This document shows, piece after piece, positions 7,174 to 48,372 of a stretch of DNA of 64,000 bases. A program made the translations under genes and the position numbers. Under the pieces are notes generated by a model that worked only from the letters and a program-made list of their open reading frames with translations, made no database searches and was not told where the DNA came from. The stretch is from contig JAQXNX010000003.1 in assembly GCA_029098225.1 (NCBI GenBank), positions 1-64,000 on the forward strand, read 5' to 3'. Within the stretch, counting starts at the first letter, position 1; each line of letters starts with the position of its first letter. The DNA comes from Spirochaetales bacterium (GTDB lineage Bacteria; Spirochaetota; Spirochaetia; Treponematales; Treponemataceae).

Positions 7174-8139
7174 ATGAAAAAGGCGTTAAATTTATTACTT
7201 GCATATATTTTGTTCCTGATTCTTGGAATAATTGTTTTTACTCTTTTTAATATAATGAATATGAGCGTTCAGAGTTTTATTGCAGGACGCGAAATTCGTT
7301 TTTTTATTCGGGAAAGAATAATTATTTCTTTTTTTAAAGCTTCCTTTGTATGCATCTGTTTAATTTGCCCCTGTATTACTTATTATAGAATCCGTCATCC
7401 AGGAGGAATCCTTCAGGCGGTTGCATATATTATTATCTGCGGAGTTACGTGGTTTATTCTTTTTCCATGTGTACATAAACTTGAATATAATTATTCACAG
7501 AAATTTCAGTCTTACGAAAATGAAAAAATTCTTTCTTCTGGATATTTTAGAAAGAGTGGAAATAAAATCTATTATTTTAAAAATGAATTTACAGAGGTTT
7601 ATGAAAATAGAAAAGAGACCAATGTAATTATAATTGATCTGGATGAAGATGGAAAAATTTCCAGCCGTCCGATTGTTAATTCTCCTTATTTTGAATTGAA
7701 TAGAACTGCGGAGCCTTTTTCTGATGTTTTAATTAAACAGAATTTTGAAGAAAATCGGAAAGTTTCCTTTAGTTTTAATAATATTATTGAATACGGAAGA
7801 AATGCCTTTAATAAAGGAATTACATTTTATCTTGGATTTATATCAATGGCATTAATAGTATGCAGCTTATATGCCATGACAGGATTTTTTGAATGGAAAC
7901 TTCTTAATTCCTGTTTTCTAATTGTTTCAACAGCCTTCTGTTATATTTTAAATAGTTTTTATTTTTCTGATATACTTTCATTTATAGTAAATAGATTATC
8001 ATCCTATAGATTTATAGAATTATTGGCCAATTATTTTGATAATCCTCTATTAGTAATAGTAAATGTTTTTTTTGCCTTTTTATTTATTATTATGGGGCTT
8101 ATAAGAATGATTGTAAAAAAACATAAGGCTAAGAACTGA
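7174..8139 (+). CDS. Polytopic membrane protein of unknown function
   Basis: A 321-aa protein that I do not recognise. Hydrophobic segments lie at about residues 5-25, 48-70 and 80-97. A soluble stretch of roughly 110 residues follows (KYYFK/IIIDLDEDGKISSRP region), then four C-terminal segments between about 215 and 312. The overall plan of membrane cluster, soluble middle, membrane cluster resembles bacterial permease-like or LptF/G-like proteins, but no motif proves this. It is followed 14 nt later by another membrane protein, so the two probably form one complex. The start follows a TATAAT promoter, with weak ribosome-binding signal. Confidence 0.8.
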   Translation: MKKALNLLLAYILFLILGIIVFTLFNIMNMSVQSFIAGREIRFFIRERIIISFFKASFVCICLICPCITYYRIRHPGGILQAVAYIIICGVTWFILFPCVHKLEYNYSQKFQSYENEKILSSGYFRKSGNKIYYFKNEFTEVYENRKETNVIIIDLDEDGKISSRPIVNSPYFELNRTAEPFSDVLIKQNFEENRKVSFSFNNIIEYGRNAFNKGITFYLGFISMALIVCSLYAMTGFFEWKLLNSCFLIVSTAFCYILNSFYFSDILSFIVNRLSSYRFIELLANYFDNPLLVIVNVFFAFLFIIMGLIRMIVKKHKAKN

Positions 8140-8153
8140 GACGAGGGATTAAT

Positions 8154-9989
8154 ATGAAAAAACTTTTTGGAATGCTGGGAATCTTTTTAGCTCTTGGTCT
8201 TACAATTTGTCTTGTGATGGGCTTTTGTTCTCATGTACCGGAAGAAATTGTAAAGTCTTCTGTTTTTGGTTTTAAATTGTTAACCGGTTTTGAATATTTA
8301 ATAAAATATTTTCCTGGTTTAATAATTATGGGCTTTGTAATCAGCTGTTCTGTTCATTTTGGACATAATCCGGAAGGCAGTTCATACAGATTTTCAAAGG
8401 CAATGTTTGATCGTTTTAAAATAGTAATTATAAGTTCAATTATAATTTCAGCGATTCTAACCCTTAATTCAGAAGTTTTTGGAATTTTAATTTCAAATAG
8501 GAAAGCAAAAATAATTAATAGGCCAAAAGTAATTGCAGAATATGTTCAGGTGGGAAACAATCTTTTTGAGCATGGATTTTATGATAGAGCTCTTTTGTAT
8601 GCCGATGCAGCTTTAAAATTAAATTCAAATGATGAAGCTGCAATTAATCTTAAAGAAAAATCAGAAGTGGAGCAGAGCCGTTCACAAAATGCAAATATGC
8701 GTTTTAAATTATATGAATCTGTAGAAGAAGCCAGAAATGTAGATGAAGTTAAAATAGACAGCACACAGATTTACGAAGTTTTTACTTACTATCAGAAAGC
8801 AAAAGAAGCTTACGAAAATGAGCAATGGTTCAATGCACATTATTATGCTGAGCTTGGATTAAAACTTGCAACTCCAAAAGATCCTAATCTTGATTCCCTT
8901 AAAGAATTATCTACAATGGCCTGGAATAATCTTACAGAAAAGCACAGTAAATCTAAAACTGAAGAACAGAAAATTTTCGACAGAAAATATGAAGGTTATC
9001 TTGCTTTAGTTCAAAAGGATGATTTAAAGGCCTATTATATTTTTAGAGAATTATATTCTTCTTCCAGAGAACTTCAGTCAGATCCTGATGTTTCTTTTTA
9101 TCTTGAAATAGCTGAAAACAGAATTAATGAAAAGTACTTTTTTATAGATGAAACCTTTGAACTTCAGACTCTTGAATCAGCAAATAACGTTTATTTTTCT
9201 TATGATTATGCAGATGGCTCAACAGATTTAGTTTTCTTTAAAGGTGTCACAACAGTCGCTGGAACCGGAAATTCTATTCAATATTTACGGGATTTAACTA
9301 TTAAAACTATTGGAAAAGACGGTTATATAACAAGAACAATGCAGGTTCCATATGCAAAAGTTCTTCCCGTATCCATAGAAGGCTTTAATTCAATTACAAA
9401 GAGTCTTTTGGGAATTGATGAACATATTAATTTTATTCCTTATATTCTTCTTAATTCTGTTGGTCGCGATAATCCTGAAATTTCAATTTCTCCGGAATAT
9501 AGTTTTGCGCCTGGTCATGAAGCTCAAACTCCTGATTATCTTTTACTTCCAATTGATTATGAAGATTTTGTAATGCTGGAAAATGCTTCAAACGATCCAT
9601 ATAAAACTTCTTTAACAAATTTGTATAAGCTTATTAAGCGTTCAGAAATGTATGGTTTTTCTGAAGAAGTTTATGGCCAGATATTCATTAACAGAGTTAT
9701 GTATGCCTTGTGGATGATATTTATAATGATTCTTTTAGCTTCTTTTGCATGGAATAATAGAATTGAACCAACTCAATATTTTAAATTAACCTGGGCTTTT
9801 GCTTTCCCGATTTTCTTTGTTGTTGCCTTTGAATTTTACAGGCTGGCATATTTTGTTTTAAAATTAATTAATTACGCAGTTTTAGCAAGATTTGATTTCT
9901 TTATGGCAAATATTGCAAGTTTTGTTATTATCCTGCTATTCCTGCTTATAGGAACAATAATCTTTCTTGCAAGGCGTTCAAAAAAATAA
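8154..9989 (+). CDS. Membrane protein with TPR-like middle domain
   Basis: A 611-aa protein with three N-terminal hydrophobic segments (about residues 5-25, 45-65, 85-105). A long soluble region follows, with TPR-like helical repeats (NLFEHGFYDRALLYADAALK; then the AYENEQWFNAHYYAELGLKL unit) and a beta-rich part. Three C-terminal membrane segments end the protein (about 525-605). No catalytic motif is seen and I do not recognise a family. A GAGGGA ribosome site precedes the ATG. It is the second gene of the operon beginning at 7174 and is convergent with the ABC-F gene, only 2 nt away. Confidence 0.8.
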   Translation: MKKLFGMLGIFLALGLTICLVMGFCSHVPEEIVKSSVFGFKLLTGFEYLIKYFPGLIIMGFVISCSVHFGHNPEGSSYRFSKAMFDRFKIVIISSIIISAILTLNSEVFGILISNRKAKIINRPKVIAEYVQVGNNLFEHGFYDRALLYADAALKLNSNDEAAINLKEKSEVEQSRSQNANMRFKLYESVEEARNVDEVKIDSTQIYEVFTYYQKAKEAYENEQWFNAHYYAELGLKLATPKDPNLDSLKELSTMAWNNLTEKHSKSKTEEQKIFDRKYEGYLALVQKDDLKAYYIFRELYSSSRELQSDPDVSFYLEIAENRINEKYFFIDETFELQTLESANNVYFSYDYADGSTDLVFFKGVTTVAGTGNSIQYLRDLTIKTIGKDGYITRTMQVPYAKVLPVSIEGFNSITKSLLGIDEHINFIPYILLNSVGRDNPEISISPEYSFAPGHEAQTPDYLLLPIDYEDFVMLENASNDPYKTSLTNLYKLIKRSEMYGFSEEVYGQIFINRVMYALWMIFIMILLASFAWNNRIEPTQYFKLTWAFAFPIFFVVAFEFYRLAYFVLKLINYAVLARFDFFMANIASFVIILLFLLIGTIIFLARRSKK

Positions 9990-19721: not shown

Positions 19722-21509
19722 ATGAGTGAAAAAATGAACAAAAAAAACAGCCAATTTAAATTTTTATCAATTCTTTATTATATTCAGCTTGCTTCTGCTG
19801 TATTGTTTTCTTTTTTATGTTTGAGCTTTAATGCAGATATTTCTCTTTTAGCATTCCCAATTTCTTTTATTTATACAGGAATAACAATTTATTTTGTAGT
19901 TTATAAATCGTTAATAAAAACTGATGGAAAATTTATAATCCCAACTGTAAAATTTACAGAATATCTTCCTTATGCTCTGTTTATTGCATTTATTTTTAGA
20001 AGAGCCGGAAAAACTGGTACTTCCTTTTCTATCGATGTTGTTACTGTAATTTTGTGGTTTATTATTTTTATTCTTGCATTTTTTAATGCAAGATTTTTAT
20101 ATCCAAAATATCAGAAGAAAAACGAAAAGAAAGACGGAATTAAAAATCCTTATATGCGAAATAAAATTTTTAATTCCTGGTCGGTTGTTCCTGTTGCAAA
20201 AAATTATAAAGGAACAGGCTGGCTTATTTATCAGTTTTTTGATCTGCTTGATGCAGCTGTATGGGCAATTTTTACTGTATTAATTTTCCAGATTTTTGTC
20301 CTTCAGCTGTATTCAATTCCTTCAGAATCAATGGTTCCAACCTTTCTTGTAAGAGATAAGGTCTTTGTTTCTAAAATTGACTGTGGTCCAAAATTTCCGC
20401 TTACAGATGTAGGGTTGCCGGATTTTAGAAAATATAAGCGCGGTGACACAATTGTTTTAAGAAATCCTCATTATACAATTAACAGACAGTCAGAAGTAAA
20501 AACTGTTATTTCCAACCTTGTTTATATGTTCACCCTGACAAAGGTTAAAATTAATAAAGATGAGTATGGTGAGCAGAAGGCAGATCCTCTTGTAAAAAGA
20601 ATTACAGGTTTACCTGGCGAGCAGCTTGTTATGCAGGATGGGGTTCTTTATGTCCGTACAAAGCAAAGTGATGAATTTGTACCATCGCAAATTGATGCTC
20701 AATATGCTAAATGGAATTTGAATGGAATAAAAGGTGTTTCTCTGGAATCAAAAACACTTCAGTATTTACCGCTTTCTGAAAGTGACTATAAGGCTATGAC
20801 TGATTTTGAACAGTATCGACGCGAATATGATTTAAATAAGGCCGCTGAAGAAGTTCAAAAAATTGTTGAAGATTTGAAGCTTCTTTGTAAAAATAATGTA
20901 TTTTCAGAAAATTTTTCTGCACCAAAGCTTATTCAGATGGAACTATTTGCTTATGCTTATGATTATGCAGATAGTATTACAAAACAGAAAGGCGGTATGG
21001 AATGGTTTTCTGAATTTGTTACTTCATGGATAGAATCAAAGGATAATAAACGAGATTATTATTCAGAAGCGAATTTCAGATTAAATGTAATTTCTAAAGT
21101 TGAATTTGCAAAGCTTATTTATAGGTATGCAGAATTAAATACTTCGGAAATTTCTTCAGATCAGCTTTCTGATTCACAGATTGATGAGATTTTTAATAAT
21201 GCAAGAATTTTGCTTTGGTATGTAAATAATCTTTTGGATCAGAGAAATATGCCTTTATTCCCTGCTAATGATGCAAACGGTAATCCTTCATATATTCCGG
21301 AAAACTGCTATTTTATGATGGGCGATAACAGATTTAATTCTTTTGATTTACGTCATTCAGACACTCGTTCATTAAAGCCTTTATGTGTTGATGATCCATA
21401 TTCTGTTGAATATTATTCATGTATGGCTCCGCAGTATATAAATAAGAAATACATAATTGGAAAACCTGTAATAAGAATTCTTCCATTTAATAGAATAGGA
21501 CGTGTTTAA
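19722..21509 (+). CDS. lepB: Signal peptidase I with long N-terminal and internal extensions
   Basis: Type I signal peptidase cleaves signal peptides of exported proteins with a Ser-Lys dyad. Catalytic Ser203 lies in IPSESMVPTFLVRD and Lys292 in VKRITGLPGEQL; box E is MMGDNRFNSFDLRHS near the C-terminus. At 595 aa it is about twice the usual size. Residues 1-150 add four extra membrane segments, and roughly 200 helical, charged residues are inserted between the Lys motif and box E (about 305-525). A TATAAT lies 8 nt upstream of the ATG (19708-19713). Expected at the cytoplasmic membrane with its active site outside. Confidence 0.92.
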   Translation: MSEKMNKKNSQFKFLSILYYIQLASAVLFSFLCLSFNADISLLAFPISFIYTGITIYFVVYKSLIKTDGKFIIPTVKFTEYLPYALFIAFIFRRAGKTGTSFSIDVVTVILWFIIFILAFFNARFLYPKYQKKNEKKDGIKNPYMRNKIFNSWSVVPVAKNYKGTGWLIYQFFDLLDAAVWAIFTVLIFQIFVLQLYSIPSESMVPTFLVRDKVFVSKIDCGPKFPLTDVGLPDFRKYKRGDTIVLRNPHYTINRQSEVKTVISNLVYMFTLTKVKINKDEYGEQKADPLVKRITGLPGEQLVMQDGVLYVRTKQSDEFVPSQIDAQYAKWNLNGIKGVSLESKTLQYLPLSESDYKAMTDFEQYRREYDLNKAAEEVQKIVEDLKLLCKNNVFSENFSAPKLIQMELFAYAYDYADSITKQKGGMEWFSEFVTSWIESKDNKRDYYSEANFRLNVISKVEFAKLIYRYAELNTSEISSDQLSDSQIDEIFNNARILLWYVNNLLDQRNMPLFPANDANGNPSYIPENCYFMMGDNRFNSFDLRHSDTRSLKPLCVDDPYSVEYYSCMAPQYINKKYIIGKPVIRILPFNRIGRV

Positions 21510-37689: not shown

Positions 37690-38370
37690 ATGACCGATAA
37701 AATTTTATCTCAGGGAATAGATTTCTATTCAAAAAAAGACTATGCAAAGTCTCTGGCTTTCTTTCTGGCTCTTCCATCAGATTCTGGCGCAGATAAAAAT
37801 GAAATTGCGTACTATCTGGGTCTTTGCTACACAAAACTTCATAAATATGATGATGCACTTTTGTATCTTGAACAGGTTGTAACTTCTGGTTCTCATCTTG
37901 AACGGACTCTTCAATGCCGTTTTCTGCTTGCGGTAATTTATGCTATTTCCGGAAGAAAAAGACTTGCAGATTTTGAACTTAATAAGCTTTTAGAAACAGG
38001 CTATATGACAGCTTCTGTTTATGCCGCTATTGCTTATGTTGCCTGGGAACAAAAAGATACTCAGAGATGTCTTGATTATTATGAGCGTTCACTGGCGACA
38101 GATCCTGATAATGTTTCTTCTCTTAATGGACTTGGATATGTGCTTGCCTGCGAAGAAAAAGATTTAACCAGAGCGCTTTCTTTGTGTAAACAGGCTGTAA
38201 AGATAACTCCAAATTCTGCTGCCTGTCTGGATTCTTTAGGCTGGGTTTATTATAAACTCGGTTTATATGATGATGCCATGCAATATCTTTCTCAAGCCGA
38301 AAAAATCGATACAGAAAGTGTTGAAATTGCTAATCATATAAAATCTGTTTTATTAAAGGCAGGGCGATAG
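37690..38370 (+). CDS. TPR-repeat protein
   Basis: A 226-aa protein made of about five tetratricopeptide repeats (YLGLCYTKLHKYDDALLYLE; CLDYYERSLATDPDNVSSLN; SLGWVYYKLGLYDDAMQYLS). There is no signal peptide, so it is probably cytoplasmic unless exported by another route. A GGTGGGA ribosome site precedes the ATG. Its stop codon overlaps the GTG start of the next gene (TAGTG), so the two are translationally coupled. Probably a scaffold for that partner. Confidence 0.85.
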   Translation: MTDKILSQGIDFYSKKDYAKSLAFFLALPSDSGADKNEIAYYLGLCYTKLHKYDDALLYLEQVVTSGSHLERTLQCRFLLAVIYAISGRKRLADFELNKLLETGYMTASVYAAIAYVAWEQKDTQRCLDYYERSLATDPDNVSSLNGLGYVLACEEKDLTRALSLCKQAVKITPNSAACLDSLGWVYYKLGLYDDAMQYLSQAEKIDTESVEIANHIKSVLLKAGR

Positions 38371-40445
38371 TGAAGAAAAATAAAATCCATCATAAAATTT
38401 TATTTGTTTTTTCTTTCTTTTTTTTGTGTGCAACTGCTATTCCGCAGACCACTGATTCTGCCGGAATGACAATTCCTGCTGATCGAATCCGAACAGGTAA
38501 TGAGGGCCTTGCTTCTGATGCATTCAGGCTTGGAGTTCAGGCTTATTACAGAGGTGCGTTTAATGAGGCTGTAGTTCAGTTTGAAACTGCACTTTCTTAT
38601 CTGCCAAACGATAATCTTATTCTGGACTGGCTTGGAAAAAGCTATTATAAAACAGGACTTGAAGGTAGTGCTTTAAGTTACTGGCAGTCAGCTGTTAATA
38701 ACGGCTACGGCGGATTACTGCTTCAGAATAAAATTGAAATTGTACGAGAACGTCGGGTTACAGGTGATTCAGAAGATAAACTTTTAAGACTTTCAGAAGC
38801 AGGAAGTTTTTCGGGCTTATTTAATAATAATTTAGTTTTTAGTGGTCCTGTTTCTGTGCAGCCTAATTACGACGGAACTTTATGGGTAGTTGCCTATAAT
38901 TCCAACGAAATTGTTCTTATAAATCAAAATGGAAAAATAATTGATAGAATTGAAGGACCAATAAACGGTTTTGACAGACCAAGCGATATTCTGCGTCTTC
39001 ATGACGGGCGTCTTCTTGTAAGTGAATTTGCGGGAGACAGATTAAGCCTTCTTTCTTCAAACGGGCATTTTGAAAAATACATAGGTCAAAAAGGAAGAAT
39101 GCTTGGAGGTCTTGTTGGACCATTGTATATAGCCCAGGATTATCTGGAACGAATTTATGTTACAGATTATGGTAACAGACGCGTAGACGTTTATGACAAA
39201 GATGGAGAACCTGTCTTTTACTTTGGCGGCGCACAGGCTGGTTTTGAAGGCTTAAAAGGTCCTACAGGAATTGCAATTGTTGATGATTTTGTTTTTGTCG
39301 CAGATGATTATTCAGGCTGCGTATATCAGTTTGACCGTTCTGGAAATTTCCTGCGTGAACTGGTAGAGAAGGGAACTTTCTCTCATCCCGAGGCAATAAA
39401 AGTCTGGAATGATAAGCTTGTATTATGTGATTCAAATAAGGTTGTTTCGATTGACTGTAATACAGGTGCGTTGTTTGAATTTGTAAGGACAGGAAATGCG
39501 CCTTCAAGAGTAACAACAGCTAATCCTGATATAAACGGAAATCTTCTGGTTTCTGATTTTACTGCTAATGAAGTTTATGTTATGTCTCAGACACAGGAAC
39601 TTGTGGGGGGACTTTTTGTTCAGATAGAACAGATTGATGCTTCCAAATTTCCTGATGTAACTGTTGAGCTTAGAGTAGAAAACCGCCATCGTCAGCCGCT
39701 GGTAGGTCTGCAGGAAGAAAATTTTTATCTTTCTGAAAATAAACAGCCGGTCACAAATTTACGTATGCTTGGCGCGGCTTCTAATAATACGGTTTCGGAT
39801 ATAACAATTATAATTGACTGTTCAAATAACAGTTTTGTCTATAAAAGTGAAATCGAAACTGCTGTTAAAGAAATTGCACAGAATATGAATGGCGGAACTT
39901 TAAGAATAGTTTCTGCTTCTTCAATTCCGGTTACAGAATATATAGGCCGGCCGGATATGCTCGGTGATTTTAGTCTTTCCGCTTTAAAGAATCCTTCTGC
40001 AAAGATAATTAATGCAGATCTTGCACTGCGACTTGCAGCAAATGATTTAATTAATGCAGAAAAGAAAAGAGCTGTTGTATTAATTACTTCAGGAGAATCT
40101 TCTTCTTATAATTTCCAGAATTATAATATGGCAGAACTTGTTTCTTACATGAATAATAATTCAATAGGCTTTTCTGTTATTCAGGTAAAAGATGTTGCTG
40201 TTTGCGATGAGATTTCTTATATATGCGATAATACTATGGGCGATATTTATTATATATTCAGACCTCAGGGCTTATCTGATGTTGTAAAAGATATTATAGA
40301 AACACCACAGGGAATTTATCAGCTTTCTTATACTTCTTCAATGCAGACAAATTTTGGTACAAAGTATCTTCCTCTCGAAGCAGAAGTTTATCTTTTAAAC
40401 AGAAGCGGTCGTGATGAAACCGGTTATTTTGCACCGCTGCAATAA
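38370..40445 (+). CDS. Exported TPR / beta-propeller (NHL) / VWA-like protein
   Basis: A 691-aa protein with an N-terminal signal peptide (cleavage near CATAIPQ, residue 26). A TPR pair covers residues about 45-110. NHL-type beta-propeller repeats cover about 150-400 (IDRIEGPINGFDRPSDILRL; YITDYGNRRVDVY-like repeats). A von Willebrand A-like domain covers about 460-640, with a partial MIDAS (ITIIIDCSNNS). These folds mediate protein or glycan binding. It starts with GTG overlapping the previous stop. Its end is 1 nt from the end of the convergent DinB-fusion ORF, with no terminator visible between. Confidence 0.85.
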   Translation: MKKNKIHHKILFVFSFFFLCATAIPQTTDSAGMTIPADRIRTGNEGLASDAFRLGVQAYYRGAFNEAVVQFETALSYLPNDNLILDWLGKSYYKTGLEGSALSYWQSAVNNGYGGLLLQNKIEIVRERRVTGDSEDKLLRLSEAGSFSGLFNNNLVFSGPVSVQPNYDGTLWVVAYNSNEIVLINQNGKIIDRIEGPINGFDRPSDILRLHDGRLLVSEFAGDRLSLLSSNGHFEKYIGQKGRMLGGLVGPLYIAQDYLERIYVTDYGNRRVDVYDKDGEPVFYFGGAQAGFEGLKGPTGIAIVDDFVFVADDYSGCVYQFDRSGNFLRELVEKGTFSHPEAIKVWNDKLVLCDSNKVVSIDCNTGALFEFVRTGNAPSRVTTANPDINGNLLVSDFTANEVYVMSQTQELVGGLFVQIEQIDASKFPDVTVELRVENRHRQPLVGLQEENFYLSENKQPVTNLRMLGAASNNTVSDITIIIDCSNNSFVYKSEIETAVKEIAQNMNGGTLRIVSASSIPVTEYIGRPDMLGDFSLSALKNPSAKIINADLALRLAANDLINAEKKRAVVLITSGESSSYNFQNYNMAELVSYMNNNSIGFSVIQVKDVAVCDEISYICDNTMGDIYYIFRPQGLSDVVKDIIETPQGIYQLSYTSSMQTNFGTKYLPLEAEVYLLNRSGRDETGYFAPLQ

Positions 40446-40446
40446 T

Positions 40447-43400
40447 TTAGAATTCAAGTTTTCCACCAAACGTAAGAGACATAAATGCGGTCATTTTTTC
40501 GCTGTCTGTAATTGTAAAGATTGTATTGACAAGAGAAGTTGTTGCAAAGTTTTTTATTATTTTTGTTTCTGTTGAATGTTTGTAATCAATTTTCTGATGA
40601 ATAATATTATATGAGCTTCCAATTGTATAGGACAAAGAATCTTTTCTTGTTATATAAAAATTATTTTTGTAATTAAAAATTCCTGTAAGGATTGCCTGAG
40701 TAAGGCTGGAATTTCCATTTCTAGAATAACTTATATTTGCTGTAATATCCCAGATTAAGTCTGTTTGAAGCTGGGCTTCGTTGCCAAAAGAAATAACTGA
40801 TGTATTGTTAAAATAAAGGAATGTTGTCTGGAAAATTTTAAAATTATAGGCTAATAGTCCATTATGTTTTGAATTTGTGTGCGCATAGGGAAATTTCAGC
40901 AGAGAAGAAATTCCCCAGAAGGTTTCATCTTCAATATAAGGATTTAAATTAATTCCTCTGAATTCAATTGAGTTTTTAAGCTGGTAAATATCTGTCTTTT
41001 TTGTAGTATCACGCGAAGCTGAAAATAAAACATTCGAAGGAATAATTATATCTATGTCTTTGTAAAATAACTTTCTTTTGTAAGAAAAATCATAGGTTGA
41101 ATTATATAGTCCGGGAAGATTTTTTCCCTTTTCGCTTTCAAATAATTCATAAAACGGAATTGATTGATAAAAAAATAAACGATCATTCTGGCTGTTAAAT
41201 AATTTGCAGCTTCCTTCTGTATAATCAAGAATTTCTATATTGTCCTGCTGTGTTCGTGCATTTCGTGAAATTCCAAAGCCTAAAGTATAATTTTCAAATG
41301 TAAATGGCAGATCAAGGCCAAGTTGTTCTGAATCTGTGAATAAAGAATTATTTATGGTTGTGTCCTCTGAATTTAAAGAATAAATTATCGAAGGAGTAAA
41401 GACTTCAGTAATTCGTTGAGAAAGTTTTGCAGTATAAGTTTCTGTCTTAATGTGAGATTCTTTCCAGCCGCCCGACAGCTGATTTTTTCCCGAATGTTTA
41501 TATGACTCATCATATGTTTTTTGAGAAGGAAAGTTCAGATCTATTAAATAATTATTATTTTTTCTTTTCTGAGAAAATATAGCTTCTGCAGAAAATGATG
41601 TAGAAAAACATGAATAAGGAATTGTTGATAAATTAAGTACAAAACTGTCGCCCTGATTTTCAATAATATTAAAAAGAGAATATTCAGTTTTTGCTCCCAC
41701 CAGAAAATTAACAGGGAGATTTTGATTCGTTAATGAAAGTTTTGCTTCATCAGTTTTTGAAAGAGTTTTGTCCGTTTTGTTTTGTTGAAAAGCTTCTGAA
41801 AAATCAAGAATAGAAAAAATCGGCTTATCGGTTTTAACAAGATGCCCCGCAGATAAATATTCATTTTCTGTAAACGAAACATTTCCTCCCAGAGTCAGCT
41901 TTAAAATTGTAATTTTGCCATTCAAATTTGAAAGCGTAGAAAAATCATATTTCTTTTGATTCAAAAAAATACTTTCTTCTTCAGGCTTATCTTTTGATTT
42001 TTCAAAAACATCGTTTATAAAAAAAATCTGTTCTGAATCAGCAGAAAGATTAAGATTTTTTATCAGATAGCCTTTATTTAAATAAATTAAATCTTCCTGA
42101 ATAATCTGAAGTTTTATTTTATTTTTTGCATTAAAATCATCATAAATATAGGCTTTGTTTACGGCTGCAGTTAAAGAATCTTTTATGTAAAAACCATTTT
42201 TATTAATTTCTATTCCGCTTCCGAAAGCAGCAAAGTGAGGATTTTCTTCTATGGTTGGAATAAGTCCGGTAAGAGAAAAATCTACATTTAAATAATCAGA
42301 AGGTTTTATAAGCATGCCTGCTGCTAATGAAACATTTCCTTCTGAAAATTCCGGAGAATCTTCTGTGTAGGTAATATAAATTTTATCTGTTTCAGAAATT
42401 GTCTTAGAGAGCTTTACAATTCCGCTTTCTTTTGAATAAAAAGCATATGTATCCTGAATACCGTTTATGTAAACTTTTACTGAATCTTTTGCAGCTGAAT
42501 TTCCAATTAAATAATTCTGCACCTGAGTTAAAGTCTGTACACAAATTAAAAGATCAGACTCATAATCTTTTGAAAGATATATTTCTGGAATTTCTTTTGC
42601 AAATGGAAATTGCGGGCATTCCGCAGCAAAGGTATTTTTGTTTGTAATTTCTGAATAAAATTTTAAAGCACGAAAATAATCATTATTAAGATATGAATGT
42701 TCTTTATAATACGAAGAACATTCATAAGAGGAAATTTCCTGCATTGATTTTTGATTTACAACATAAACCTGTGCATCTTCTTTTGAAATATAAGTATTAC
42801 AGCAAAGAAAAGGAGAAAAGTTTTTTTCATTTTGAATTTTGAGTGCGTTTTCGCCGTTTATTTCTGATATCAGTTCATATTCATAATCTTTAAGTAGAAT
42901 ACTATCTTTAAACTGCTTTTGAATTTTTCCCTTATAAGAATTTTCATCATCATAATCTCCGCATAAATTTTTAATCTGCCCTGCATCCGAGTCTGATAAA
43001 AAAGTTACAAGAATTTTTGGAATTTGATTTTCAATTTTTCCTGATTTTGCTTCCGGTGAAATTAAAATTTTTCTTTCTTTTATAAATATAAAATATTGCG
43101 AGGAATCAAGCTTTTTATATTTATTACCATCCTTATCTAAATATTGTCCGTAAATATTTTCTACATAAATATCTTTTACTTCTGTAAGAATATTTTCAGA
43201 ACCTTTTGGAAAAATAAATTCTGTTCCATATAAAAATTGATCGGGTTTTAAATACGACTGCTGGACTTCGTTCATTCCATAATAAGTTTTAGAAACTGTT
43301 TTTGAATTTTCGTAATCGGCCATAAAATCAAAAAATAAATTTTCGGATGTATTTGAAAAATGACCTTCTACGCCTGGTGAAAATTTATTTCCTGAATAAG

Positions 43401-45117
43401 AAAAATAACCGTTTTCTACTGTAGAATAATAGCCCGGAAAATTAATACCTTTATTTGCAAATTTAATTTCCTTTACAAAATCGTTTCCTACATAACCTGT
43501 CTCTAATAAACTGTCTTTAAATTCGTCAGAGAATTCTCCGTTAAAAAAAAAATGTTTATTAAGCAAAAGATGGGCCGCAAGATCAACTTTTTGTGTATAA
43601 ACAGGTGTTACCTCTGAGAATGAAGGCGATTCTCCTTCTTCAAAAGTGGAATAGGCGGATGCAGAAAATTCTCCAAGCCAGAATCCCGAAACATCCAGCT
43701 CAACATTTTCATCTTCGTAATCATTACTTTTTACAGGAAGCTCTTCTGCCTGTTCAGCTTCTATTTGCGGTACAATGTCTTGTACATTGTCTTCAGAAAA
43801 ATCCAGTACGTTATCTGACGATAAGTCAGATGATTTCTCAGAAAGCATATCCTGTGCATAAATATTTTTTGCAAAGAATAAATTCATAATTAATAATAAA
43901 AACGGAATGAGAATATTATTCTTTAGTGTCCTTGCTTTCTGGATTTTTATTTCAGGATGCTTTTTAGAAAGTTCAAGTATTGCTTTTTCAACTTTATTTT
44001 TTTTCTTATTGATATCTTCAAAAAGCGTGAGTTGTTCAGTAAGTTCAGTTTCTTCAATATTTTCAAAGCCAACTCCAAGAAGTCTTATGCCGCGTCCTGA
44101 AATATATTTTTTTTCAAAAAGATTTTTTAAAATTTCAAAAAATGAATCAAGGGTTTTTATATTTGTATCTACAGTCTGTTGTGCTGAAATTGTTGAAAAA
44201 TCATCATAGCGTATTTTAATAAAGGCCGTTTTGGAAAATCCGCCTTCTTTTAATAGACGGAACATTACGCCCTGAGCAAGTTCTAAAAGTTCAGTCTGTG
44301 CTGTATAAGAATCTGTAATGTCATAGGCAAATGTCGTTTCTGAACTAATTGAATGAGATTTTGGCCTGGTAGAAAAAGTTTCAGCTTCTATTCCGCGTAC
44401 TGTGTTATAAAGAAAGCTTGCCATACTTTTTCCAAAAATTAATTTAAGGGAATCAAAAGGAATGTTGTAAATTTGTCTTGTAGTTTTTATTCCATGATTA
44501 TTTAAAACTTCAATTGATTTTACACCAAGTCCCCATACTTTATTTAAGGGAAGAGAAAGCATAAAATCCTGTTCAGTTCCGGGCTTTACATAAAAAAATC
44601 CATCCGGTTTTTTATAGCCCGAAGCAATTTTTGCAAGATATTTTGTTGCTGCAAGCCCGATAGAAACTGTAAGACCCGTTTCTTCAAAAACTTTCTTTTT
44701 AATTTTTACTGCAATTTCTTCGGGTTTTCCAAAAAGCTTTTCCGTTCCAGTAATATCAATAAAAGCTTCATCTATGGACATCTGCTGAACATCTGGTGAA
44801 AATTCTTTAAAAATATTCATAATGCGGCAGGAAAGCTCTGTGTAACGATGCATTCTGCCCCGCACATAAATTCCATTTGGACAAAGCTTATAAGCCTGGA
44901 AAATCGGCATTGCCGAATGAACTCCATATTTTCTGGCTTCGTATGAGGCTGTAGAAACAACACTTCTTCTGTCTTCCGGAAGACCGCCTACTATGACAGG
45001 TTTTCCTTTGTATGAAGGATTATCCAGTTGTTCTACGGATGCAAAAAAAGCATCTAAATCGACGTGCAGATAATAATGTTGTATTGCTTGAGATTTGAGC
45101 TCTTTATTATTCTCCAA
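40447..45117 (-). CDS. dinB: DNA polymerase IV fused in frame to a signal peptide and large outer-membrane-like protein
   Basis: One 1556-codon ORF. Residues 1-398 are a complete Y-family polymerase: YLHVDLDAFFASVEQ, the SIDEAFID catalytic pair, helix-hairpin-helix and little finger, ending at the normal DinB terminus (KIQKARTL). With no stop codon, residues 399-421 then form a signal peptide (NNILIPFLLLIMNLFFAKNI, cleavage after YA). The remaining 1135 residues are Ser/Asn/Phe-rich and beta-strand-like, ending in Phe (GGKLEF) as outer-membrane barrels do. No ATG precedes the hydrophobic stretch; the first is Met411, inside it. Either a stop was lost between two genes, or an internal non-ATG start or signal-peptidase cleavage separates the products. 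The second part belongs to no family I recognise. Confidence 0.8.
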   Translation of the reverse strand: MENNKELKSQAIQHYYLHVDLDAFFASVEQLDNPSYKGKPVIVGGLPEDRRSVVSTASYEARKYGVHSAMPIFQAYKLCPNGIYVRGRMHRYTELSCRIMNIFKEFSPDVQQMSIDEAFIDITGTEKLFGKPEEIAVKIKKKVFEETGLTVSIGLAATKYLAKIASGYKKPDGFFYVKPGTEQDFMLSLPLNKVWGLGVKSIEVLNNHGIKTTRQIYNIPFDSLKLIFGKSMASFLYNTVRGIEAETFSTRPKSHSISSETTFAYDITDSYTAQTELLELAQGVMFRLLKEGGFSKTAFIKIRYDDFSTISAQQTVDTNIKTLDSFFEILKNLFEKKYISGRGIRLLGVGFENIEETELTEQLTLFEDINKKKNKVEKAILELSKKHPEIKIQKARTLKNNILIPFLLLIMNLFFAKNIYAQDMLSEKSSDLSSDNVLDFSEDNVQDIVPQIEAEQAEELPVKSNDYEDENVELDVSGFWLGEFSASAYSTFEEGESPSFSEVTPVYTQKVDLAAHLLLNKHFFFNGEFSDEFKDSLLETGYVGNDFVKEIKFANKGINFPGYYSTVENGYFSYSGNKFSPGVEGHFSNTSENLFFDFMADYENSKTVSKTYYGMNEVQQSYLKPDQFLYGTEFIFPKGSENILTEVKDIYVENIYGQYLDKDGNKYKKLDSSQYFIFIKERKILISPEAKSGKIENQIPKILVTFLSDSDAGQIKNLCGDYDDENSYKGKIQKQFKDSILLKDYEYELISEINGENALKIQNEKNFSPFLCCNTYISKEDAQVYVVNQKSMQEISSYECSSYYKEHSYLNNDYFRALKFYSEITNKNTFAAECPQFPFAKEIPEIYLSKDYESDLLICVQTLTQVQNYLIGNSAAKDSVKVYINGIQDTYAFYSKESGIVKLSKTISETDKIYITYTEDSPEFSEGNVSLAAGMLIKPSDYLNVDFSLTGLIPTIEENPHFAAFGSGIEINKNGFYIKDSLTAAVNKAYIYDDFNAKNKIKLQIIQEDLIYLNKGYLIKNLNLSADSEQIFFINDVFEKSKDKPEEESIFLNQKKYDFSTLSNLNGKITILKLTLGGNVSFTENEYLSAGHLVKTDKPIFSILDFSEAFQQNKTDKTLSKTDEAKLSLTNQNLPVNFLVGAKTEYSLFNIIENQGDSFVLNLSTIPYSCFSTSFSAEAIFSQKRKNNNYLIDLNFPSQKTYDESYKHSGKNQLSGGWKESHIKTETYTAKLSQRITEVFTPSIIYSLNSEDTTINNSLFTDSEQLGLDLPFTFENYTLGFGISRNARTQQDNIEILDYTEGSCKLFNSQNDRLFFYQSIPFYELFESEKGKNLPGLYNSTYDFSYKRKLFYKDIDIIIPSNVLFSASRDTTKKTDIYQLKNSIEFRGINLNPYIEDETFWGISSLLKFPYAHTNSKHNGLLAYNFKIFQTTFLYFNNTSVISFGNEAQLQTDLIWDITANISYSRNGNSSLTQAILTGIFNYKNNFYITRKDSLSYTIGSSYNIIHQKIDYKHSTETKIIKNFATTSLVNTIFTITDSEKMTAFMSLTFGGKLEF

Positions 45118-47086
45118 TGTTAATTACCCTTGTACAGACATTATAACTGTTTTCTTTTTCTGTTGCAAAAAAAGCTGAAATTTTTATTGTAGAATTTTCA
45201 TTTGTGCAGCCGTAAGAAAAATTCAGTGTTGAAGGTGGATTCTGCGGTATTTTAAAATATATTGAATTATTGGAAAGAAGTTCATAATCATTATCACTGT
45301 ATAAAATAGGATTTTTATTGTTTCCTTCAAGAATAACATTACATTCGCAGACATTTACAGGAAGTGTAATTGTAATTGTTCTGATTATATCATCAAAAAT
45401 AATTCTGTCTGAATAAACAAAATTTATGTTATCGGAATCAATCTGTGTAAGTTCTATGTTCTGTGGAATATTTCGTTTTTTTATCTGATGAGTTCTAATA
45501 ATTCCTGTAATGCTTAACGCTATTACCAGCGCCAGACTAAAAATCATTCCCGTACGGATGGTACTTACAGCTGTTTTTCGATTACGTATAATTCCCGCAA
45601 GAATTCTGAAATAAACAAGCAGAATAGGGGAGAGAGTTAAGGAAAGTACAATTGAACTCATTGGATTTGTCATTAATGTATTCTGCAATAGTTCTGGTTC
45701 TGCATAATTTGTTGTTGTATGCGCAACTGGAATAAAGCACCAGATCATTAAAAATAGTAAAATAATGTGAATGACATTATTTTTTATGTAAAGGCAAAAA
45801 ATTGAAAGTATAAATACCGTAAAGAAAAGCGGGAATAATGAAATATCAATCAGAATAAAAATTGACTGATTGATAAAACTTGAAATTACAATAAGAAAAT
45901 CAATGGCTCTGATATGAAAATATTGATTATATAAAAGTGTAATCAAATAAAATAACGTAGAGAAAAAAACAGAGAGTCCTATCTGAATAATTGAATTTGT
46001 ATACATTTTAGCAGTTTCAGAAGAAATGAATTTTAAAATGATTGTTGAAAATCTTCCTGTAAAAAAACAGAACAGACAAATTAAAAAACTCACAGGAACA
46101 ACATACCAGACATATTTTACAGAAGAAAAGGCTATTTTTTTTCTTTGAGTATTTACAAAAAGCAGAAGAAAGAAATAAAAAAGGCATAGCAAGATTATGA
46201 TTTCCAAAGAGATCATAATTGCATGCTCAGATAATCTGAAGTAATGTCCAAACATTTTTAATAAAAAGAAATGCTGATCCAAAGGTTCTGTTTTTCCTGT
46301 TTTAATAAGGTTTATTGCACCCTGAAGAATTAATAAATTAGAATTTTCTCTGTCCTCCAGAAGAATTTTAATTGCCGGAATTCCTTCTTCAAAAAAAGCC
46401 GAAAGCTGTCTGTCATAAGAAAAATTAGAGCGGAAAAGCTTGCTTATATAATTCCATGGTAAAACAGGATTTTTTGTATTTTTAATAAAAAGATTGTAAA
46501 AGCCTGCTACAAAATATGAAGAACTTGAATATTTATTACTGCTGGAAATTACGCTGTATTTGTCTTCGTTTAATTCAACTATTACGGCAATATAATCTTT
46601 ACTTGTATCAAGTCCTTCTATAAAAGTATTAAGTCCGTAAATTCTTTGAATTGAATTTTCAAGAATATTATTTTGAATTTTGTCATCACCGTATGTGAAG
46701 ACAAAATCTATATCAAAATCAAGTGAAGATGTTTTTATGAATTCAGCAGTATGAAGAATAAGATTTTTATTAGAAAGAACGTCATCCATTGAAAAAATAA
46801 AAATTCCGCCTGGCGAAGAAAAATCAAGGTCTTTTTCTTCTTCTTTTTGAGAAGAAGAGGTATTTTTTATGTTTTTTTTACCGGGAAAATGGACAAGTAT
46901 GTTGTAAGGAAAGTCATTTTCGCCGTTAACTACTATACTTTGTGTTTTTGGTTCAAGAGAAGCCTTATTTAAAAAACTATAAACTTCACCACATAGCTCA
47001 GAACCGCTTTTTACCTCGGCAAAAAGAAGGGTATAATTAAAGAGACAAATTAAAAATAAAAAAAGCAGTTTCTTTAGTCTGTTCAT
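45107..47086 (-). CDS. Polytopic membrane protein with large extracytoplasmic domains
   Basis: A 659-aa protein with a signal peptide (residues 1-23, ending LLFAEV) and an extracytoplasmic domain to about residue 280. Eight to nine membrane helices follow (about 290-530), then a second extracytoplasmic beta domain. The first domain (NDFPYNILVHFPG...FIFSMDD) loosely recalls exported M28-type peptidase-like folds, but no zinc ligands can be identified, so I assign no enzyme. Its 3' end overlaps the dinB start by 11 nt, so dinB and its fused outer-membrane part are translated with an envelope gene, which hints that the OM part is the functional neighbour. Confidence 0.8.
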   Translation of the reverse strand: MNRLKKLLFLFLICLFNYTLLFAEVKSGSELCGEVYSFLNKASLEPKTQSIVVNGENDFPYNILVHFPGKKNIKNTSSSQKEEEKDLDFSSPGGIFIFSMDDVLSNKNLILHTAEFIKTSSLDFDIDFVFTYGDDKIQNNILENSIQRIYGLNTFIEGLDTSKDYIAVIVELNEDKYSVISSSNKYSSSSYFVAGFYNLFIKNTKNPVLPWNYISKLFRSNFSYDRQLSAFFEEGIPAIKILLEDRENSNLLILQGAINLIKTGKTEPLDQHFFLLKMFGHYFRLSEHAIMISLEIIILLCLFYFFLLLFVNTQRKKIAFSSVKYVWYVVPVSFLICLFCFFTGRFSTIILKFISSETAKMYTNSIIQIGLSVFFSTLFYLITLLYNQYFHIRAIDFLIVISSFINQSIFILIDISLFPLFFTVFILSIFCLYIKNNVIHIILLFLMIWCFIPVAHTTTNYAEPELLQNTLMTNPMSSIVLSLTLSPILLVYFRILAGIIRNRKTAVSTIRTGMIFSLALVIALSITGIIRTHQIKKRNIPQNIELTQIDSDNINFVYSDRIIFDDIIRTITITLPVNVCECNVILEGNNKNPILYSDNDYELLSNNSIYFKIPQNPPSTLNFSYGCTNENSTIKISAFFATEKENSYNVCTRVINIGE

Positions 47087-47205: not shown

Positions 47206-48372
47206 ATGGGTGCCGGCGACAAAAAATTTATGCTTGAACTTCCTCTTAAGGTCGTTTTAACCGAAGATGGAGCTTCAAATTTTATAAGTCATAATAAAAA
47301 ACTTCTTAGATTTAAACTTGCAGATAATGTAGAGGAATATGGAATTTCTCTAAATAAATTTTCTCCGCAGTCAATCCAGAGTATGATTCTGCTCGATTAT
47401 ATTTCTAAAATTGAAATTTCTATGTCTGAATTTGTTTCTTCCCGCCAGGAAGTAATGGATTTGTCAAAGGTTATTGTATATTCAATTTTATATAAACAGT
47501 TTGACCGCGATGTTTACGGCGATTTAATTCAATGTGAATGTGTCAGAAAGCATAACAGAGCAAATCCTTCTCATTTAATTGATGAACGTACACAAATGAC
47601 AGAACGTCAGCTTCGCTCAATTTTGCAGAATAAAGAAAATATTATTCAGACGACAAGAAAACAGATTCTTGAACCAATCTGGAATTCAATAATGACAAAT
47701 AAAGATTTTTCTAATGAAGAAAAAAATATTTATCTTTTAATGTCAGAAAAATTTATGAATCGTCTTGGATTAATGAACTGGTACATTATAACTCTTTTTG
47801 CAAAAAACGAAGGTGCAAACGAAATGTATGTTGCAATCCGCAATAAGCTCAGCTCTTATATGGAAAAATCAAAGGTTGCAGAATATATTTCGGTAATGGT
47901 AATGGAGCTTGCACTTAATAACGAAAATACAAATATCCGCAAAGAAGCTAAGCAGATGTATCATGGAATAGAAGATATTGATGCTTTGATTTTTGATCCG
48001 GAAGTACGTGCTAAGATTGTTCAGGAATTGCAGAGAAAGCATGAACTTGTATTCCTTTCATGGAAACTTGGTGGAGGTTCAACTTCTATCGGAAAGCAGG
48101 GAAGACTTTCTATTACACTTTATAATAAGGATGATGAGTTCCAGGAAGTAAAAGAGAATATTGAATCAGCAAAAGCTTCTAACACTAACAAACGTTCGTT
48201 AATAGACTTCTATAGGGAATTGCCGGAAGGTCAGGAAGGTACTGATTTAGGCTTGTATTATCTTTCTTATCTTGATGATGCCTGTAAAAAAGTAAATGTA
48301 AAATTTGAATCTCTTGTAAATCAGTTCTCTGCAAGTGATCTTACCGTCATCAACTTGAATTTCAACTTCTGA
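47206..48372 (+). CDS. Soluble protein of unknown function
   Basis: A 388-aa cytoplasmic-looking protein, mostly helical, with no membrane segment. I do not recognise it. Two stretches faintly recall GHKL ATPases: VMVMELALNNENTNIRKEAK (N-box-like) and EGTDLGLYYLSYLDDACKKV (G2-box-like), in the right order; the ATP-lid glycines are not convincing. It is the first gene of a tightly packed run leading to a lipoprotein, trmB and ligA. A TAGGT ribosome-like site precedes the ATG. Confidence 0.8.
   Translation: MGAGDKKFMLELPLKVVLTEDGASNFISHNKKLLRFKLADNVEEYGISLNKFSPQSIQSMILLDYISKIEISMSEFVSSRQEVMDLSKVIVYSILYKQFDRDVYGDLIQCECVRKHNRANPSHLIDERTQMTERQLRSILQNKENIIQTTRKQILEPIWNSIMTNKDFSNEEKNIYLLMSEKFMNRLGLMNWYIITLFAKNEGANEMYVAIRNKLSSYMEKSKVAEYISVMVMELALNNENTNIRKEAKQMYHGIEDIDALIFDPEVRAKIVQELQRKHELVFLSWKLGGGSTSIGKQGRLSITLYNKDDEFQEVKENIESAKASNTNKRSLIDFYRELPEGQEGTDLGLYYLSYLDDACKKVNVKFESLVNQFSASDLTVINLNFNF

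Follow-up and report, generated by a model that had tools for sequence, protein, structure and literature searches.

Polyproteins that are separated by signal peptidase are a habit of viruses and eukaryotes, and to our knowledge they are very rare in bacteria. One bacterial example is FbcH of Bradyrhizobium japonicum, reportedly a cytochrome b/c1 polyprotein in which an internal signal peptide precedes the second protein and is cut by signal peptidase. The ORF that we describe here lies in a 64,000-nucleotide stretch of contig JAQXNX010000003.1 from a Spirochaetales bacterium (the window), and it resembles FbcH in having one start, two complete proteins with no stop codon between them, and an internal signal. 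Its two parts are a DNA polymerase IV (DinB) and an outer-membrane-like protein. We know of no function that an outer-membrane barrel would share with a cytoplasmic DNA polymerase, and a literature search found no report of a fusion between DinB and an outer-membrane protein. We consider it probable that the ORF encodes an authentic bacterial polyprotein, whose internal signal directs export and whose chain is cleaved by signal peptidase I; co-translation, export, cleavage, and tethering are what we infer from the sequence.

The features of the locus are collected in Table 1. The initial annotation had described a DinB that runs without a stop into a signal peptide and then into 1135 residues ending in Phe, and the single ORF of 1556 aa bears this out; a terminal Phe is typical of outer-membrane barrels. 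The boundaries within the ORF are shifted slightly, in that DinB ends at residue 399 rather than 398 and the signal occupies residues 400-421 rather than 399-421. The first ATG after DinB, at residue 412, does lie within the hydrophobic core of the signal, as had been noted. The TTG start of the fused ORF sits within the 3' end of the upstream gene, UP659; the two share 11 nt.

Table 1. Features of the dinB fusion locus, in window coordinates.
Feature	Position	Strand	Basis or remark
Convergent neighbour with TPR and NHL repeats	38370..40445	+	Pfam; conserved
Single 1556-codon ORF, DinB-signal-outer membrane protein	40447..45117	-	TTG start, no internal stop
Mature exported protein, residues 422-1556, predicted SprA-like giant beta-barrel	40450..43854	-	AlphaFold2, Foldseek
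Internal Sec-type signal peptide, residues 400-421, ending NIYA before Q	43855..43920	-	Sequence reading; equivalents in 74 fused loci
DinB (DNA polymerase IV), residues 1-399	43921..45117	-	Pfam/NCBIfam; residue conservation in fused relatives
TTG start codon of fused ORF	45117-45115	-	Read from sequence
Shine-Dalgarno-like AAGGG 5' of TTG start	45127..45131	-	Read from sequence
UP659, upstream gene, signal and multi-helix membrane protein	45107..47086	-	Conserved operon partner
DN388, divergent neighbour, highly conserved across family	47206-48372	+	No confident Pfam family

The neighbourhood, consisting of divergent DN388, upstream UP659, and the convergent NHL-repeat gene, is conserved. 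In the predicted structure of UP659, an alpha/beta domain forms the N-terminus and a beta-sandwich the C-terminus, with a bundle of membrane helices as the third element. It has no Pfam match, and a structure search returned weak matches only (glutaminyl cyclase, carboxypeptidases, and beta-sandwich proteins) that give it no firm identity.

Judging from residue conservation and structure prediction, both halves of the fusion look functional. The DinB half of the window ORF matches Pfam IMS at residues 19-166 (E 1.4e-54) and IMS_C at residues 255-365 (E 2.5e-20), and it scores above the curated cut-off of the NCBIfam DNA polymerase IV equivalog. The Y-family palm and little-finger domains and the catalytic acidic residues (D20, D22, D116, and E117) are all present, a beta-clamp binding motif, QLTLF, is found at residues 362-366, and the natural DinB end, KARTLK, is reached at residue 399. 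These features are shared by the relatives: the catalytic acids and the steric-gate Phe are kept in 62 of 62 fused DinBs, and a QxxLF-type clamp motif is present in 60 of them. Separately, one genome carries two additional Y-family polymerase genes (L002 and L003) beside its fused DinB.

The exported half was modelled with AlphaFold2 (pLDDT 75, pTM 0.51), and the model has the giant outer-membrane barrel fold of SprA. Its top structural match is SprA itself (8gl6_A; Foldseek E 6.2e-12), with a Z score of 20.3 over 852 aligned residues at an rmsd of 7.9, while generic porins score clearly lower (Z 15 over about 250-300 residues). The model also contains a linker of about 50 residues that is predicted to be disordered (pLDDT below 50). 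Sequence searches of Pfam, NCBIfam, and the PDB gave no match for the exported half. None of 19 members matched the SprA models of Pfam and NCBIfam (SprA_N), although PF14349 matched no control genome either, and the PorV model PF19572 had no match in the genome and likewise none in the control genomes. The exported half is thus SprA-like in its predicted fold, which does not imply membership in a type 9 secretion system.

The hydrophobic segment that joins the two halves in the window ends in NIYA and is followed by QD, with a predicted cut between A421 and Q422. By hydropathy and motif reading, it has the basic n-region, hydrophobic core, and AXA site of an export signal, and the n-region is the DinB tail KARTLK itself. 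In every fused case that was read, the natural DinB end (KARTLK, KARLLG, and the like, of KARxLK type) leads straight into the join, and the hydrophobic core that follows is usually succeeded by an AXA-like site; hydropathy and AXA-like ends were the criteria for calling signals. In 20 close pairs, substitutions at codon positions 1, 2, and 3 of the junction and signal number 186, 112, and 243. This pattern is consistent with in-frame translation under selection for hydrophobic residues, and taken alone it would also arise under internal initiation. The genome of the window has two candidate genes for signal peptidase I. An unusually long signal peptidase I-like S26 protein of 595 aa is encoded in the window at 19722-21509 (+), with a large insert separating its conserved blocks, and the contig has another S26 gene at a different position.

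The initial annotation had suggested that related genomes be compared for a stop codon at the junction. In a first comparison, with 59 relatives, the same open frame was found in most same-genus genomes that hold the exported half. Among 200 same-genus genomes searched, 118 have the exported gene, and a comparison of frames shows a stopless junction in about 105 of these, with about 60 distinct loci read by eye. Seven of the 118 are clearly separate (G062, G115, G116, G125, G201, G073, and G082), and the remainder are broken by contig ends (five) or frameshifted (one, G028, whose loci L031/L091 have a shift, either an error or a real frameshift, in an A-run near the DinB end that puts DinB and the exported half out of frame). 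The stopless junction is present in isolates (Treponema bryantii XBD1002, NK4A124, B25; T. berlinense ATCC BAA-909; Treponema sp. C6A8, JC4) and, in a 145-genome family-wide set, in eight other Treponemataceae genera (g21, g23, g27, g28, g29, g31, g36, and g38). Such conservation, in more than a hundred species of the Treponema family, rules out a chance open frame. The A8 run near 44000 was considered as a site of programmed frameshifting and rejected, as the run is not conserved among relatives, and no NPGP motif indicative of 2A-like ribosome skipping was seen.

The idea that one ORF is translated and its products are separated by signal peptidase had been raised in the initial annotation, and it is well supported by these comparisons, with the cleavage itself being a prediction. 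The same annotation offered a non-ATG start for the second protein as an alternative. In its fuller form, this alternative holds that the exported half is initiated internally, at ATT, ATA, or CTG or at a weak ATG, GTG, or TTG in the DinB tail, and that read-through from DinB is minor. The comparison of start codons makes this unlikely. In the window, no in-frame ATG, GTG, or TTG occurs across the 45 codons before the DinB end. Between 30 codons upstream of the DinB end and the signal core, where such a start could lie, 35 of 74 fused loci lack any ATG, GTG, or TTG, 58 of 74 lack an ATG, and 65 of 74 lack any of the three with a Shine-Dalgarno match of at least 4 bases; these counts cover ATG, GTG, and TTG starts. 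In contrast, each of the 20 independent exported genes has a standard start codon, placed 3-24 codons ahead of the core. Some fused loci do have an ATG, GTG, or TTG near the junction, with a 4-5 base Shine-Dalgarno match in 9 of 74, but its position is not conserved. Internal initiation is possible in one subclade (L010, L023, L024, L046, L047, L119, and L131), in which an ATG occurs at KARMLE and is preceded by AAGG in two cases. It is also favoured by two species inside the fused clade that carry separate, ATGA-overlapping genes. Even so, a full-length product is unavoidable whenever DinB is translated, because no stop follows DinB.

A second alternative is that the fusion is stable and uncut, so that DinB is either held covalently on an outer-membrane barrel across the envelope or left with the rest of the protein in the inner membrane. 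The single open frame speaks for this, but the signals end in AXA-like sites, and the periplasm would have to be spanned by the disordered linker, which makes a stable uncut product highly improbable. Finally, the window belongs to a 33-contig assembly and G028 shows that an A-run can differ, yet a sequencing or assembly error concealing a stop or frameshift at the junction, a caveat of the initial annotation, is so improbable as to be excluded, as the isolates and the roughly 105 same-genus genomes agree on the open junction.

If the ORF is a polyprotein cut by signal peptidase I, ribosomes would initiate once, at the TTG of DinB, and DinB would fold in the cytoplasm while the chain continues. 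As the segment past residue 399 emerges, the Sec route would read it as an N-in/C-out signal, the C-terminal 1135 residues would be exported via Sec, and signal peptidase I would cleave after A421. The freed exported half would then reach the outer membrane and be assembled as a SprA-like giant barrel. The cytoplasmic DinB would retain a hydrophobic C-terminal tail and would be at least transiently anchored at the inner membrane until that tail is trimmed. The tethered polymerase that the initial annotation had considered unusual is likely only in that DinB would retain the signal segment once cleavage has occurred.

The fusion appears to have originated once, from a gene pair overlapping as NTGA, by a change of frame upstream of the overlap. 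In the related genera g22 and g34, dinB and the exported gene are adjacent and separate, with ATGA or TTGA as the overlap between the dinB stop and the start that follows, and an NTGA overlap of the upstream stop with the start of the exported gene is found in the adjacent-separate cases of g22, g34, L136, and L145. Where dinB is absent between UP659 and the exported gene (L138, L139, and L141), the start of the exported gene either forms an NTGA overlap or follows shortly after UP659. In more distant families, the two genes lie apart, each with its own ends. Since the separate genes overlap as NTGA in different frames, an indel is needed for fusion. Fusion by substitution of the stop codon alone was rejected for this reason, and the earlier view that a stop codon was lost between adjacent genes is too simple. 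The DinB tree contains three changes between the fused and adjacent states, one gain and two reversals (L136 and L145), in a topology whose deep family branches are poorly resolved and which places two f5 outgroup rows inside the fused part with no firm support. The tree fits a history in which the two genes fused once and came apart again twice, with the exported half lost repeatedly.

In many lineages the exported half was lost, and DinB regained a stop codon where it naturally ends. In one genome (L191 in G235, 7319-8602 (-)), the exported half is gone and DinB ends FFIKLFAAAVLPFLQFIGVPAVF, a hydrophobic, signal-like tail followed by a stop. This tail is apparently a relic of the signal of the fusion, making L191 a natural membrane-tailed DinB. 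Because two lineages re-split and many lost the exported half, the fusion is, on this comparative evidence, not indispensable.

The fusion joins two proteins of unrelated compartment and function, forces a mutagenic polymerase and an outer-membrane barrel to be made in a 1:1 ratio, and has lasted since the ancestor of several Treponemataceae genera. Its persistence may reflect a ratchet, since a stop and a start would have to arise at the same time to undo the fusion, although two lineages did undo it. Alternatively, the fusion may bring a benefit, for instance by making the release of polymerase depend on successful export. A specific version of this idea is that the signal segment keeps DinB at the inner membrane up to the moment when the barrel has been exported and cleaved, such that the state of outer-membrane protein export determines the amount of free error-prone polymerase in the cell. 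We regard this as speculative and rather doubtful; if true, envelope stress and mutagenesis would be physically linked. In E. coli, DinB-dependent stress mutagenesis needs the envelope stress response, independently of SOS and DinB induction (PMC2909356); this makes a link worth testing and is only a hint. The fused, split, and half-lost lineages are natural controls for why the fusion exists. The locus further shows an evolutionary path from a stop/start overlap to a polyprotein, and it suggests that spirochaetes have a family of SprA-like barrels. Database entries for Treponemataceae "DNA polymerase IV" of 1500-2100 residues are likely real rather than annotation errors.

Compared with DNA polymerase IV, the fused DinB has all of the domains, catalytic residues, and the clamp motif in common, and it differs in that its C-terminus passes into an export signal with no stop there. 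In other Treponemataceae, the dinB-omp pairs that overlap as NTGA (L189, L190, and L192-L195) share genes, order, and neighbours with the fusion, but there the two genes are each separately started. The predicted giant barrel aligns with SprA/Sov, the type 9 secretion translocon, over the length and with the score given above, whereas the exported half is about half as long, is about 11% identical, has no sequence-model match, and occurs in a spirochaete host joined to DinB. As in FbcH, one bacterial ORF encodes two proteins with the second behind an internal signal peptide, whose cleavage is predicted here; the halves of FbcH, however, are subunits of one membrane complex.
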